The notes below the pieces were generated by a model, which was given only the letters and a program-made list of their open reading frames with translations, made no database searches and was not told where the DNA came from. A DNA stretch of 42,137 nt, taken from a virus. The stretch spans positions 1 to 42,137 of IMG/VR virus record IMGVR_UViG_3300033183_000690. One strand, 5' to 3'. Of the stretch, positions 9,045 to 42,137 are shown piece by piece. Both the position numbers and the translations under genes were made by a program. The stretch's first letter is position 1. Every line of letters begins with the position of its first letter.

Positions 9045-10804
9045 TGCGCTTAGTCTGGGACGTTGAAACCAACGGCTTCCTAGACCAGCTTACAAAGATA
9101 CACTGTCTAGCAGTGTTAGATGTCGATAAGGATAAAGAGCCACGCATTTTTCATGGTGACACCTTAGAGACAGGCATCAAAATGTTGATGAAGGCGGATG
9201 AACTCATTGGCCACAACATCATCAACTTTGACATTCCAGCAATCAAGAAAGTTTACTCATGGTTCAGTACGGATGATGTACTGGTCACAGACACGCTTGT
9301 TCTGTCTAGGCTCATCCGCTCTGACCTGAGAAACGAAGACTACGCTAAGGGGTACACACACGAACAGCTACCACGAAAGCTTCATGGCTCACACAGTCTC
9401 AAAGCCTATGGCATGAGGCTAGGTGTCCATAAAGGTGAGTTCGGGGATGAAGGCTGGGAAGAGTGTACGCCTGAGATGCTGGAATACTGTAAGCAGGATG
9501 TAGCCGTTAACTACGCACTGTGGAAGCGACTTGCTCCACATGAGTGGTCACAAGAAGCGATAGCGTTTGAACATGACATCGCCAAGATTTGTAATGAGAT
9601 TGGTAATGCTGGTTGGACATTCGACATTGAGAAAGCACAAGCACTTCACGCTGAGTTGTCTTCACAGAAGATAGCCATCGAGCAAGAGCTTCAGGAGCTG
9701 TTCCCAGCGTGGACGATAGAGACAGAGTTCATTCCAAAGGTAAATAACAAGACCAGAGGGTATGAAAAGGGTGTCCCATTCATCAAGGAAGAAGTTGTCC
9801 ACTTCAACCCCAACAGCAGAAAACACATCGAGTTCTGTCTAAGGCGTAAATACAACTGGAAACCTAAAGAATTTACCTTCACTGGTGATGCTAAGGTTGA
9901 TGAAAGCGTCCTTAAGTGTCTGCCCTTCCCAGAGGCGCAGAAACTGGCACGTTCTTTCATGCTACAGAAGCGATTGGGGATGCTGTCTGATGGCAATGCC
10001 GCATGGCTTAAGTTAGTGGATGATGATGGTAAGATAAGACACACCATCAATTCACTAGGAACTGTCACAGGCAGGGCATCAAGCTTCGCACCAAACCTAC
10101 AGCAAGTACCAGCTACCAGAGCTGAATACGGCAAAGAGTGCAGGGAGCTGTTCACTGTGCCTGAAGGCTACAGTCTGGTCGGTGCTGACCTTAGTGGCAT
10201 TGAACTGAGATGCCTCGCCCACTTCCTACAAGATGGGGGTAAGTACGCTGACATCATCTTGCAAGGTGACATTCACCAAGCTAACGCAGATGCCGCTGGC
10301 ATCAGCAGAGATGAAGCCAAGACCATGATTTACGCACTTTGCTATTCAGCAGGTGACGCACGTTTAGGTCAGATTCTAGGCAAAGGGGCAGCCGAAGGCA
10401 GGAAGCTAAGAGATAACTTCTTCAAGGCTAATCCTGCATTTCCAAAGCTACTGAAGCAGTTGAAGCGTGTGGTTGAGAGTAGGGGGCATCTCTTCGGTCT
10501 TGATGGAAGATGTTTACATGTGAGAGGTCACGCACACCTCAACGTGTTGCTCCAATCAGCTGGCGCACTAATCGCAAAGAAGTGGGTGCAACTCATCCAC
10601 AACGAAATCAAACAACAACAGCTAGACGCAACCATCATAGCGTGGGTTCACGATGAGGTGCAGATAGCGGCAAAACCAGAGGAGGCAGAGCATGTCGGTT
10701 TACTCGCTAGACGAATGGCGACGGAAGCAGGGAAACACTTCTCGTTCAAAATCCCAATCGAAGCAGAACACACCATCGGACGCACATGGGCAGACACCCA
10801 CTGA
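9044..10804 (+). CDS. Family A DNA polymerase, T7 gp5-like
   Basis: A 586-residue replicative polymerase with both expected domains. The N-terminal 3'-5' exonuclease starts at once with D6-x-E8 (VWDVETNG), followed by HNIINFD and YCKQD. The polymerase domain has motif A VGADLSGIELR (D382), motif B RDEAKTMIYALCYSAGD and motif C VHDEV (D537, E538). It is about 120 residues shorter than T7 gp5 (704), so the region equivalent to the T7 thioredoxin-binding insert may be reduced or absent; I did not align it residue by residue. The start overlaps the MazG-like gene. The 3' end overlaps the next gene by 113 bases. Confidence 0.96.
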   Translation: MRLVWDVETNGFLDQLTKIHCLAVLDVDKDKEPRIFHGDTLETGIKMLMKADELIGHNIINFDIPAIKKVYSWFSTDDVLVTDTLVLSRLIRSDLRNEDYAKGYTHEQLPRKLHGSHSLKAYGMRLGVHKGEFGDEGWEECTPEMLEYCKQDVAVNYALWKRLAPHEWSQEAIAFEHDIAKICNEIGNAGWTFDIEKAQALHAELSSQKIAIEQELQELFPAWTIETEFIPKVNNKTRGYEKGVPFIKEEVVHFNPNSRKHIEFCLRRKYNWKPKEFTFTGDAKVDESVLKCLPFPEAQKLARSFMLQKRLGMLSDGNAAWLKLVDDDGKIRHTINSLGTVTGRASSFAPNLQQVPATRAEYGKECRELFTVPEGYSLVGADLSGIELRCLAHFLQDGGKYADIILQGDIHQANADAAGISRDEAKTMIYALCYSAGDARLGQILGKGAAEGRKLRDNFFKANPAFPKLLKQLKRVVESRGHLFGLDGRCLHVRGHAHLNVLLQSAGALIAKKWVQLIHNEIKQQQLDATIIAWVHDEVQIAAKPEEAEHVGLLARRMATEAGKHFSFKIPIEAEHTIGRTWADTH

Positions 10805-11036
10805 TGCAGAGATGGATGGCTTGAAGGCAATCCTAATGCTTCTGACAATAGCCAGAATGAAGCCCTTCACGACCAAAAGTACACTGGCACGAGATGCCGC
10901 TACAGAGATAGCTCTGTGTGCGATTGAAGGGTTACTTACTACCAAATTAAACGACACCACCTACAGCAATGTATGGATGGTTACACAGCAAGGATTGGAT
11001 TACATAGAGGAGTTCGAAGATGTTTTTAGCACTTGA
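10692..11036 (+). CDS. Hypothetical protein with long overlap into DNA polymerase
   Basis: A 114-residue protein of unknown function. The first 113 bases lie inside the DNA polymerase gene in another frame. The start is supported by AGAGGAGG about 6 bases upstream. The overlapped part encodes a polar, low-complexity N-terminus (KQGNTSRSKSQSKQN). The unique part is a helical domain with DGLKAILMLLTIARM and AATEIALCAIEGLL, ending in an acidic segment. Its stop overlaps the exonuclease gene by 17 bases. It sits in the replisome block, so a role in replication is likely by context only. Confidence 0.75.
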   Translation: MSVYSLDEWRRKQGNTSRSKSQSKQNTPSDAHGQTPTDAEMDGLKAILMLLTIARMKPFTTKSTLARDAATEIALCAIEGLLTTKLNDTTYSNVWMVTQQGLDYIEEFEDVFST

Positions 11037-11751: not shown

Positions 11752-12185
11752 CCCCAGAACAACAGGAACTGTCCAGATTACACGATGTGATGGTTCTGAA
11801 GAAGAATAGTTACTACGCAGTCAAGGAAGACGGTAAAGCAAAGACTAAGGCACTCAGGGAATACCTCAAGGCACAGTCTGCTTACGAAGAGCTTCGTGTG
11901 CAGTTGGCTCGAAAGTCAAAGATACACGAGCATCATGACCCAGACGGTGAGATTGTAGTTCTCAAGAAAGAAGACATGGTGGAGCAACCACCACACTACA
12001 ATCAAGGTGAGATTGAGTGCATAGACGCAATCAAATCTGCCGCAGGTGAGCATTTTGTCTACCACTGTACCAGTACAGCCATGAAGTACCTTTGGCGTTG
12101 GGATAGCAAGGCTGCCCCAGCCGAAGACCTCAAGAAAGCTAGATGGTACATAGATAAAGCCATCGCAGAGATTGAGGATGCTTAG
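11739..12185 (+). CDS. DUF3310 / T7 gp1.7-like putative nucleotide kinase
   Basis: A 148-residue protein read from a GTG at 11739, with AAGGAG 10 bases upstream inside the exonuclease gene. The C-terminal 65 residues are a DUF3310 domain with its hallmark pattern PPHYNQGEIECIDAI, then AMKYLWRW, then DLKKARWYIDKAI. T7 gp1.7, a dTMP/dGMP kinase, belongs to this domain family, so nucleotide phosphorylation is plausible but not shown. The N-terminal 75 residues are helical and charged (a coiled-coil-like linker). Its stop lies inside the start of the methyltransferase gene. Confidence 0.85.
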   Translation: MDTITPEQQELSRLHDVMVLKKNSYYAVKEDGKAKTKALREYLKAQSAYEELRVQLARKSKIHEHHDPDGEIVVLKKEDMVEQPPHYNQGEIECIDAIKSAAGEHFVYHCTSTAMKYLWRWDSKAAPAEDLKKARWYIDKAIAEIEDA

Positions 12186-13050
12186 GCATGTTGACCTATG
12201 CAGTGGCATAGGAGGATTTGCACTAGGGTTTGAGTGGGCTGGGTTATCTCAGCCCATTCTCTTTTGTGACACAGAAGCTTGGTGCAGAAAGATACTGAAA
12301 CAGCATTGGCCAGATGTGCCAATCACAGAAGATGTAAAGGAATTAGCGAATGAACCAGACGGAGTGCCAGACTGTGACATCATCACAGCAGGATACCCCT
12401 GTCAGCCCTTCAGTGTCGCTGGGAAGCAAGAAGGCACAAAAGATGACCGCCACATCTGGCCGTACATTAGCCAAATTGTTGCACACAAAAGACCCACTTG
12501 GGTTGTTCTCGAAAATGTTTATGGCCACATCGCACTGGGTCTCGACCAAGTGCTATTTGACTTGGAAGCCGAAGGTTACACCTCAAGGACGTTTGTTGTG
12601 CCAGCTTGCGGTGTCAATGCCCCCCACAGAAGAGATAGACTCTTCGTTATGGGCTACACCGACCTTCTGGGCAACCCCAGCGGCGGCAGACTGCGAGGGG
12701 TCGACAGGCGGAGGGCAGGGCAGAAGCCTTCGGACGGATGTTCGGATGTGGCCGACACCAACCCATCGGGACTACAAGGGGATGTCAGGCAAGGGCAGAC
12801 AGGAACGCAAGGGCAATCCAACAGACACGCTTCCGAACGCAGTGAAGGGGTCACTGAACCCCGATTGGGTGGAATGGTTGATGGGCTATCCGTATGGATG
12901 GACGAACCTGAAGACATCCCAAGAGTAGCTACAGGTGTTCCTGACAGAACCCACAGAATAAAGGGACTAGGCAATGCCATAGTACCCCAAATCGCATTAC
13001 AAATCGGACTAAGCATTAAAGCAGTCGAAGACAAGAAGGCTGAGGTTTGA
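12178..13050 (+). CDS. C5-cytosine DNA methyltransferase (Dcm-like)
   Basis: A 290-residue DNA (cytosine-5) methyltransferase. Motif I is DLCSGIGGFALGFEWAG, motif IV AGYPCQPFSVAGK with the catalytic cysteine, motif VI VLENV, motif VIII PHRRDRLFVMGY, and motifs IX-X near HRIKGLGNAIVPQIAL. No restriction enzyme gene lies next to it, so it is probably an orphan phage methylase that protects phage DNA or alters host marks. The ATG at 12178 is preferred over a TTG two codons earlier; its ribosome site is weak, and it overlaps DUF3310 by 8 bases. The target-recognition region (about residues 165-260) is polar and low in complexity. The same bases encode a second, homologous-looking protein in another frame at 12350-12928. 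Confidence 0.93.
   Translation: MLRHVDLCSGIGGFALGFEWAGLSQPILFCDTEAWCRKILKQHWPDVPITEDVKELANEPDGVPDCDIITAGYPCQPFSVAGKQEGTKDDRHIWPYISQIVAHKRPTWVVLENVYGHIALGLDQVLFDLEAEGYTSRTFVVPACGVNAPHRRDRLFVMGYTDLLGNPSGGRLRGVDRRRAGQKPSDGCSDVADTNPSGLQGDVRQGQTGTQGQSNRHASERSEGVTEPRLGGMVDGLSVWMDEPEDIPRVATGVPDRTHRIKGLGNAIVPQIALQIGLSIKAVEDKKAEV
12350..12928 (+). CDS. Gene nested in the methyltransferase, +1 frame (WPTPT...VEWLMG family)
   Basis: A 192-codon ORF lying wholly inside the methyltransferase gene. Its translation is not random: CYLTWKPKVTPQGRLL, then SLWATPTFWATP, MWPTPTHRDYKG and LNPDWVEWLMGYPYGWT. I recognise these from a phage protein family, often annotated as hypothetical or methyltransferase-associated, with repeated WPTP-type motifs and a terminal VEWLMGFP signature. 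The ATG has AAAGGA 8 bases upstream. Both frames look constrained: bases 12749-12781 read VADTNPSGLQG in one and WPTPTHRDYKG in the other. Function unknown. The alternative is a former C-terminal part shifted out of frame, but the methyltransferase keeps its own conserved C-terminus. Confidence 0.65.
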   Translation: MNQTECQTVTSSQQDTPVSPSVSLGSKKAQKMTATSGRTLAKLLHTKDPLGLFSKMFMATSHWVSTKCYLTWKPKVTPQGRLLCQLAVSMPPTEEIDSSLWATPTFWATPAAADCEGSTGGGQGRSLRTDVRMWPTPTHRDYKGMSGKGRQERKGNPTDTLPNAVKGSLNPDWVEWLMGYPYGWTNLKTSQE

Positions 13051-41251: not shown

Positions 41252-41390
41252 TTTTTCCAAAAAATTACAGGTGCTGATGGCTGTGTGTTTGTAAGCTTTT
41301 TTATGCCATCAACACGGATAGCTATATTTACGACAGCTATGTTATCTGTCATGCTCTGTCTAACAGCAGACAGGGTCATGAGGCGTGGAA
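41252..41390. other. Host intergenic region
   Basis: Between tRNA-Pro and the dehydrogenase. GTG-C-TGATGGC (from about 41272) and GCCATCA-A-CAC (ending about 41317) can pair over a T-rich loop and may terminate the tRNA transcript. No gene seen. Confidence 0.4.
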
Positions 41391-42137
41391 ATGTTATCAC
41401 TCACAGGAAAGCGGATATTTGTTAGCGGCGCGGCGGCTGGCATGGGACATTCGGTTGCTCGCCATGCGCTTGATGCAGGCGCTGAAGTTGTTGCAACAGA
41501 TATTTTATCGGATGGGCTAGATTTGCTGTCTCAGGCAGGTGCATCTACCGCTATCCTCGATGTCAGTGATGCAGATAAGGTAAAACAGTTTTTTGAAACT
41601 GAACAAGGGTTTGACGGGCTTGTAAATATGGCTGGCTGGGTGCATCACGGCACAATTCTGGATGTTGATTACAGTCAATGGCAGAAATCATTCAGCATCA
41701 ATCTCGATAGCATGTTTTTCGTAATCCAGTCTGCCTTGCCAAAAATGATCGAAAAAGGGGGCGGGTCTATTGTGAATATGGCATCTCTTGCATCCTCTGT
41801 AAAAGGCTTTCCCCAAAGAGCGGCTTACAGCGCCTCCAAAGCAGGGGTAATCGGGCTTACAAAGTCAGTTGCTGTTGATTTTATGGATAAACATATCAGA
41901 TGTAATGCGCTATGTCCGGGCACTATCGAAACCCCGTCTCTGCATGGCCGCATGGCACAATTAGCAGAGAAGCTGGGGAGTATGGAAAAGGCGCAGGAAT
42001 GGTTTGTATCGCGCCAGCCGATGGGCAGGCTTGGACAGCCAAATGAAATTGCGATGATGGTGATATATCTCCTTTCTGATGCAGGGGCATATGCCACTGG
42101 TCAGCCTTTTATAATTGATGGCGGAACAATCGCGTAA
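41391..42137 (+). CDS. Short-chain dehydrogenase/reductase (host gene)
   Basis: A 248-residue NAD(P)-dependent oxidoreductase of the classical SDR family, the first host gene beyond the prophage. The Rossmann cofactor motif is G13-x3-G17-x-G19 (VSGAAAGMG), with an acidic residue after the second strand (VVATDIL), favouring NAD. The segment NMAG replaces the usual NNAG. The catalytic Ser is in VNMASLASS, with Y146-x3-K150 (AAYSASK). The C-terminus ATGQPFIIDGGTIA is typical. The substrate cannot be read; sugar-acid or hydroxyacid dehydrogenases of this family look similar. The ATG at 41391 is preferred over a GTG two codons earlier. It ends at the last base of the window. Confidence 0.93.
   Translation: MLSLTGKRIFVSGAAAGMGHSVARHALDAGAEVVATDILSDGLDLLSQAGASTAILDVSDADKVKQFFETEQGFDGLVNMAGWVHHGTILDVDYSQWQKSFSINLDSMFFVIQSALPKMIEKGGGSIVNMASLASSVKGFPQRAAYSASKAGVIGLTKSVAVDFMDKHIRCNALCPGTIETPSLHGRMAQLAEKLGSMEKAQEWFVSRQPMGRLGQPNEIAMMVIYLLSDAGAYATGQPFIIDGGTIA

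Follow-up and report, generated by a model that had tools for sequence, protein, structure and literature searches.

A reading frame nested in a phage C5-cytosine methyltransferase gene probably encodes a second subunit carrying motif IX

Introduction

In monomeric C5-cytosine methyltransferases, the helix of motif IX braces the target-recognition domain (TRD). M.EcoHK31I (YGGCCR) from Escherichia coli HK31 is a C5-methyltransferase made of two polypeptides (Lee et al. 1995, cited in PMC3404938); its large subunit has motifs I to VIII, motif X, and the TRD, and its small subunit has motif IX only (PMC3404938). The enzyme is part of a restriction-modification system (accession X82231; PMC6174562). 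In M.AquI (CYCGRG), the small subunit has motifs IX and X together with the distal part of the TRD (PMC3404938).

Here we describe a phage gene with two overlapping readings, both of which bear motifs of this enzyme family. We analyzed a stretch of viral DNA of 42,137 nucleotides (IMG/VR record IMGVR_UViG_3300033183_000690, positions 1 to 42,137), referred to below as the window, and compared one of its loci with relatives from phages and bacterial genomes. We call the outer C5-cytosine methyltransferase open reading frame (ORF) alpha and the inner ORF nested within it beta. Paenibacillus larvae phages and phage K1G have the same nested arrangement, and some of their records annotate both frames, with the inner product labeled methyltransferase, hypothetical, or "Mte8-like." In the excerpted text of the P. 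larvae phage paper, methyltransferases are listed and the overlap is not discussed. Our literature search found no paper that called the phage overlap a two-subunit enzyme or the inner product a motif IX subunit.

Results

The outer gene and its genome setting

The genome in the window is that of a phage or prophage of the T7 type, and it encodes an integrase, a single-subunit RNA polymerase, endonuclease I, a family A DNA polymerase, a DUF3310 protein, and ribonucleotide reductase. Two tandem tyrosine-recombinase-like ORFs, the first of them PF00589, lie at its left edge (1 to 1891), and a short-chain dehydrogenase lies at its right edge (41385 to 42137). Both edges point to a temperate prophage of the T7 type whose end includes some host DNA. 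Elsewhere in the window, a 114-codon ORF (10692 to 11036) overlaps the end of the DNA polymerase gene by 113 bases in another frame. Alpha stands alone within the phage replication module, next to the DUF3310 ORF and ribonucleotide reductase, and no restriction gene was seen among its neighboring genes. Its features are as follows.

12172 to 13050, plus strand: alpha, C5-cytosine methyltransferase ORF, 292 codons counted from TTG
12199 to 12219, plus strand: alpha motif I, CSGIGGF
12391 to 12414, plus strand: alpha motif IV, GYPCQPFS, with the catalytic Cys, within the overlap
12508 to 12528, plus strand: alpha motif VI, LENVYGH, within the overlap
12619 to 12648, plus strand: alpha motif VIII, APHRRDRLFV, within the overlap
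12964 to 12996, plus strand: alpha motif X, GLGNAIVPQIA (GN.v.p), 3' of the beta stop

Translation of alpha more likely starts at the ATG at 12178 than at the TTG at 12172. Alpha matched PF00145 (DNA_methylase; E = 1.3e-36) over amino acids 5 to 164, and it matched phrog_363 with E = 4e-68. Motifs I, IV (PCQ), VI (ENV), VIII, and X were all found in it. The match to M.HhaI and other solved enzymes was confined to amino acids 4 to 163 of alpha, that is, to motifs I to VIII.

Position, start, and contents of the inner ORF

Beta is open over 579 bases that lie entirely within alpha and are thus read in two frames, with the following features.

12336 to 12341, plus strand: Shine-Dalgarno sequence AAAGGA for beta, ending 8 bases before the ATG
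12344 to 12346, plus strand: in-frame TAG just 5' of the beta start
12350 to 12928, plus strand: beta, nested ORF of 192 codons starting with ATG, in frame +1 to alpha, with a C-terminal motif IX
12455 to 12607, plus strand: conserved N-terminal core of beta, modeled by AF2 as a helix and a two-stranded hairpin
12650 to 12781, plus strand: W(A/P)TP repeat modules of beta, beginning at 12650, 12668, and 12749
12851 to 12904, plus strand: beta motif IX, SLNPDWVEWLMGYPYGWT, aligned by hhalign to canonical motif IX

The initial annotation, made from these letters alone, had reported a 192-codon second-frame ORF with a good ribosome site inside the methyltransferase gene, and both the ORF and the AAAGGA site were borne out. 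It had placed the ORF in the target-recognition part, which proved too narrow; beta does cover the TRD, but it starts 41 bases before alpha motif IV and covers motifs IV to VIII as well. The two motif pairs that it had read in both frames are present, with some coordinates corrected. WPTPTHRDYKG lies exactly at 12749 to 12781, as reported, and the same DNA of this third repeat module reads VADTNPSGLQG in alpha at 12748 to 12780. Near the beta end, the pair that had been given as 12863 to 12904 consists of VEWLMGYPYGWT in beta (12869 to 12904) and PRLGGMVDGL in alpha (12859 to 12888).

Because of the TAG in the beta frame at 12344 to 12346, read-in from further upstream is excluded. Two AAAGGA sites placed in this way occur in the window, versus 0.48 expected by chance. 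Among homologous loci, 123 of 133 have a Shine-Dalgarno sequence of at least 4 nucleotides ahead of the best beta start, versus 75 of 133 for internal control starts.

In profile searches, beta matched phrog_1008, a family labeled DNA methyltransferase (E = 7.2e-32, amino acids 4 to 162), and phrog_26627 (E = 6e-10), and it matched no family in Pfam or NCBIfam. The copy number of the W(A/P)TP modules varies among homologues.

Both reading frames are conserved across many phages

Relatives of the inner protein turned up in 89 phage records at an E value of 1e-3 or less, and also in 450 stretches of viral contigs and 281 stretches of genomes; the nested arrangement recurs across hundreds of phages and prophages. 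We scanned 188 sequences with profiles, namely the window and 187 fetched loci, one of which was the window's own record. The inner frame was +1 to the overlapping alpha in 188 of 188, across many phage and bacterial groups. The kind of homologue in which the inner frame carries stops while the methyltransferase is intact was not found among the relatives, apart from a few cases with indels or truncations. The initial annotation had named such homologues, or a lack of protein hits to the inner translation, as refuting dual-frame selection; hits to the inner translation do exist (phrog_1008). Most loci were gathered by inner similarity, which favors intact inner frames, and the samples gathered by the outer gene first were smaller. 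We therefore added tests that depend less on inner similarity.

In the first of these, the codons of 133 nonredundant loci were shuffled synonymously 50 times with the alpha amino acids held fixed. The inner frame had 0 stops, versus 517 expected, and an inner profile score of 213 bits, versus 65 for the shuffled sequences. All 111 of the 111 loci outside the profile training set scored above every shuffle. The other frame behaved as expected under the same shuffle (1,698 stops versus 1,717).

Synonymous divergence told the same story. Over 72 related pairs, the divergence of alpha at fourfold third positions was 0.379 upstream of the overlap, 0.131 within it, and 0.410 downstream, and the ratio of position 3 to position 1 was reduced inside the overlap in 71 of the 72 pairs. 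When the window was compared with its relatives, divergence was 0.668 before, 0.418 inside, and 0.663 after the overlap. The drop persisted at lower identity and was weak across 15 GC-rich nested loci. We had considered that the constraint relaxes once motif IX enters alpha and dropped this idea, GC-rich nested loci being likewise weak (0.56/0.52/0.72 versus 0.52/0.45/0.64). Dual-frame selection, proposed in the initial annotation, is thus supported by three kinds of result: frame conservation at a fixed geometry, the synonymous-shuffle null, and synonymous suppression bounded by the inner ORF. These data strongly support dual coding, with purifying selection on both frames.

Motif IX lies in one frame or the other

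The alpha frame of the window has no motif IX. By profile comparison, the C terminus of beta, SLNPDWVEWLMGYPYGWT, aligns in exact register with canonical motif IX, the consensus of which is about RLTPREAARLQGFPD. The HHalign match is short (18 columns) and had a probability of 35% (P = 4e-4), versus 1.0% or less in 30 column-shuffled controls. A profile of canonical motifs IX to X matched 51 of 52 ordinary enzymes, with both motifs covered in nearly all of them; on nested alphas, the same profile covered the motif X part alone.

We also ran the alpha profile alone against 408 genomes and sorted 75 distinct loci by the frame of motif IX. Of these, 53 had the motif in the alpha frame, 21 had it in the +1 frame only, 0 had it in both frames, and 1, a short ORF, had it in neither. 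Canonical relatives lack the +1 ORF. Among the 133 nested loci, motif IX was in the +1 frame only in 129; the exceptions were two loci with indels (L152 and L170), one cut by the contig end (L062), and one broken in alpha (L032). Across the relatives, motif IX thus comes from either the alpha frame or the +1 frame.

Rearranged relatives

In some relatives, the parts are distributed differently. In L151, beta and motif X form one +1 chain and alpha ends after motif VIII, and motifs IX and X are likewise joined in the +1 frame in L281, which is of the actinophage type. In the actinophage relatives L092 and L272, motifs IX and X are both in alpha, and the WPTPT-type modules and TRD are still open in +1. 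Since the +1 frame stays open there despite motif IX in alpha, beta may have a role beyond the supply of this motif. In L295, L297, and L299, the modules and motifs IX and X are all in the alpha chain, and a short +1 ORF remains. These arrangements suggest that TRD and motif frames have been swapped recurrently by indels, although single metagenome cases may be assembly errors. The actinophage-type loci L270 to L318 vary in which frame carries the WPTPT modules together with motifs IX and X.

Structure prediction

Input alignments for AF2 were built without rows from annotated phage records. The model of beta had low confidence (mean pLDDT of 63), with a better core at about amino acids 40 to 90, and its helix at amino acids 171 to 178 coincides with motif IX. 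The beta profile had no match among PDB sequences, and a fold search with the beta model (pLDDT of 63) gave no meaningful match. The model of the fused-type actinophage protein L295 matched the M.HhaI fold (4e-12) with its TRD undefined, and this model therefore cannot place the WPTPT modules. Donation of motif IX alone does not explain the N-terminal core of beta and its WPTPT modules.

Comparison with known enzymes

By its published description, M.EcoHK31I resembles this locus in having motifs I to VIII and X on the large chain and motif IX on the small chain only. Beta is nested inside alpha in another frame. This trait is shared with M.EcoHK31I, whose small subunit is reportedly encoded inside the gene of the large subunit in another frame. 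Unlike M.EcoHK31I, the locus described here has no linked restriction endonuclease, and we regard such linkage as belonging to the EcoHK31I system and not to the enzyme type. Three nested loci from E. coli were considered as candidates for EcoHK31I itself and turned out to be prophage-like genes. The window also resembles M.AquI in having motif IX on a second polypeptide, but its motif X remains on alpha, whereas L281 and L151 show a split of the M.AquI type. The monomeric enzymes M.HhaI and M.HaeIII share motifs I to VIII and X with alpha but have motif IX in the same chain.

Discussion

On this evidence, we consider it very likely that the locus encodes a C5-cytosine methyltransferase in two pieces, with beta as a nested second subunit that carries the missing motif IX. 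Alpha would be the catalytic domain, with motifs I to VIII and X. Beta would be translated from its separate ribosome start at 12350 and would supply motif IX and probably also part of the small domain. The two chains would then assemble as a heterodimer into an active enzyme, as the subunits of M.EcoHK31I do, and both would be needed for methylation. For the phage, the role would probably be self-methylation against restriction. The initial annotation had described two conserved protein families in the same bases; this holds as an observation, but with beta as an apparent second subunit bearing motif IX, the two "families" are more likely halves of one system.

More tentatively, the overlap could be an ancient, phage-wide target-recognition cassette that is read in both frames; this wider idea strikes us as possible but on balance doubtful. 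Its modules would be gained and lost as units, motifs IX and X would move by indels, monomeric, EcoHK31I-like, and AquI-like forms would interconvert, and both readings would take part in DNA recognition. The repeat modules of this cassette would be read as elements of the VADT type in one frame and of the WPTPT type in the other.

The two-piece enzyme has to be weighed against other explanations. It is improbable, in our judgment, that overprinting on the methyltransferase happened to create a genuine gene, beta, whose product has a role of its own, such as regulation or anti-restriction. Such a gene could account for an N-terminal core that is conserved and unrelated to any methyltransferase motif and for the persistence of the +1 frame where alpha has its own motif IX. 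It fits poorly with the strictly complementary distribution of motif IX over the two frames, with relatives in which the frame-shifted beta reading continues into motif X, and with the absence of any beta away from alpha among the 188 sequences, where we looked for one.

Still less probable is that the inner peptide is a programmed +1 frameshift extension of alpha without a start of its own. In L295, L297, and L299, a single chain does hold the parts, so a frameshift could yield a complete enzyme; however, the start of beta is conserved, as is the Shine-Dalgarno sequence before it, and motif X remains in the alpha frame, 3' of the beta stop. Selection also spans all of beta, including the part before motif VIII, where a shift after motif VIII would need none.

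There is hardly any likelihood that a conserved outer protein and codon bias produced the inner ORF by chance: a +1 overlap with conserved motifs does force some similarity, as in the 65 bits of the shuffles, but observed scores beat all shuffles, the 517 expected stops are missing, and synonymous divergence falls threefold within the bounds of the inner ORF. Just as negligible is a monomeric methyltransferase decayed by frameshift into a pseudogene with conserved-looking parts, since motif-displacing indels occur in few relatives (L152, L170, and L032), and both frames are intact and selected, with separate starts, in almost all of them.

The nested split methyltransferase appears to be of a known kind and far commoner in phages than the one or two characterized examples suggest. 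If the two-piece enzyme is real, the locus would represent a long overlap of phage genes on the same strand that is conserved very widely and has a functional reason, namely two enzyme halves locked into the same DNA. It would also account for the "methyltransferase," "Mte8-like," and hypothetical annotations of inner ORFs in phage genomes. Gene callers often drop one subunit, so a cloned alpha alone may look inactive. With both split and fused methyltransferases among them, the relatives would provide a natural series for the study of how overlapping genes originate and for split-enzyme tools.

Individual phage records treat the two readings in different ways. In Salmonella phage S9-5 (L319, positions 963 to 1697), the +1 reading spans nearly the entire cytosine methyltransferase gene, beginning 4 bases after the alpha start codon and ending in the same motif IX, and alpha only is annotated. 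In Xanthomonas phage FoX4 (L085), the beta frame alone is annotated, as hypothetical protein gp11, and alpha is missing from the annotation. Mycobacterium phage Jarcob (L089) has the methyltransferase as two annotated genes, gp69 and gp70; the second is in another frame and contains motifs VIII, IX, and X.
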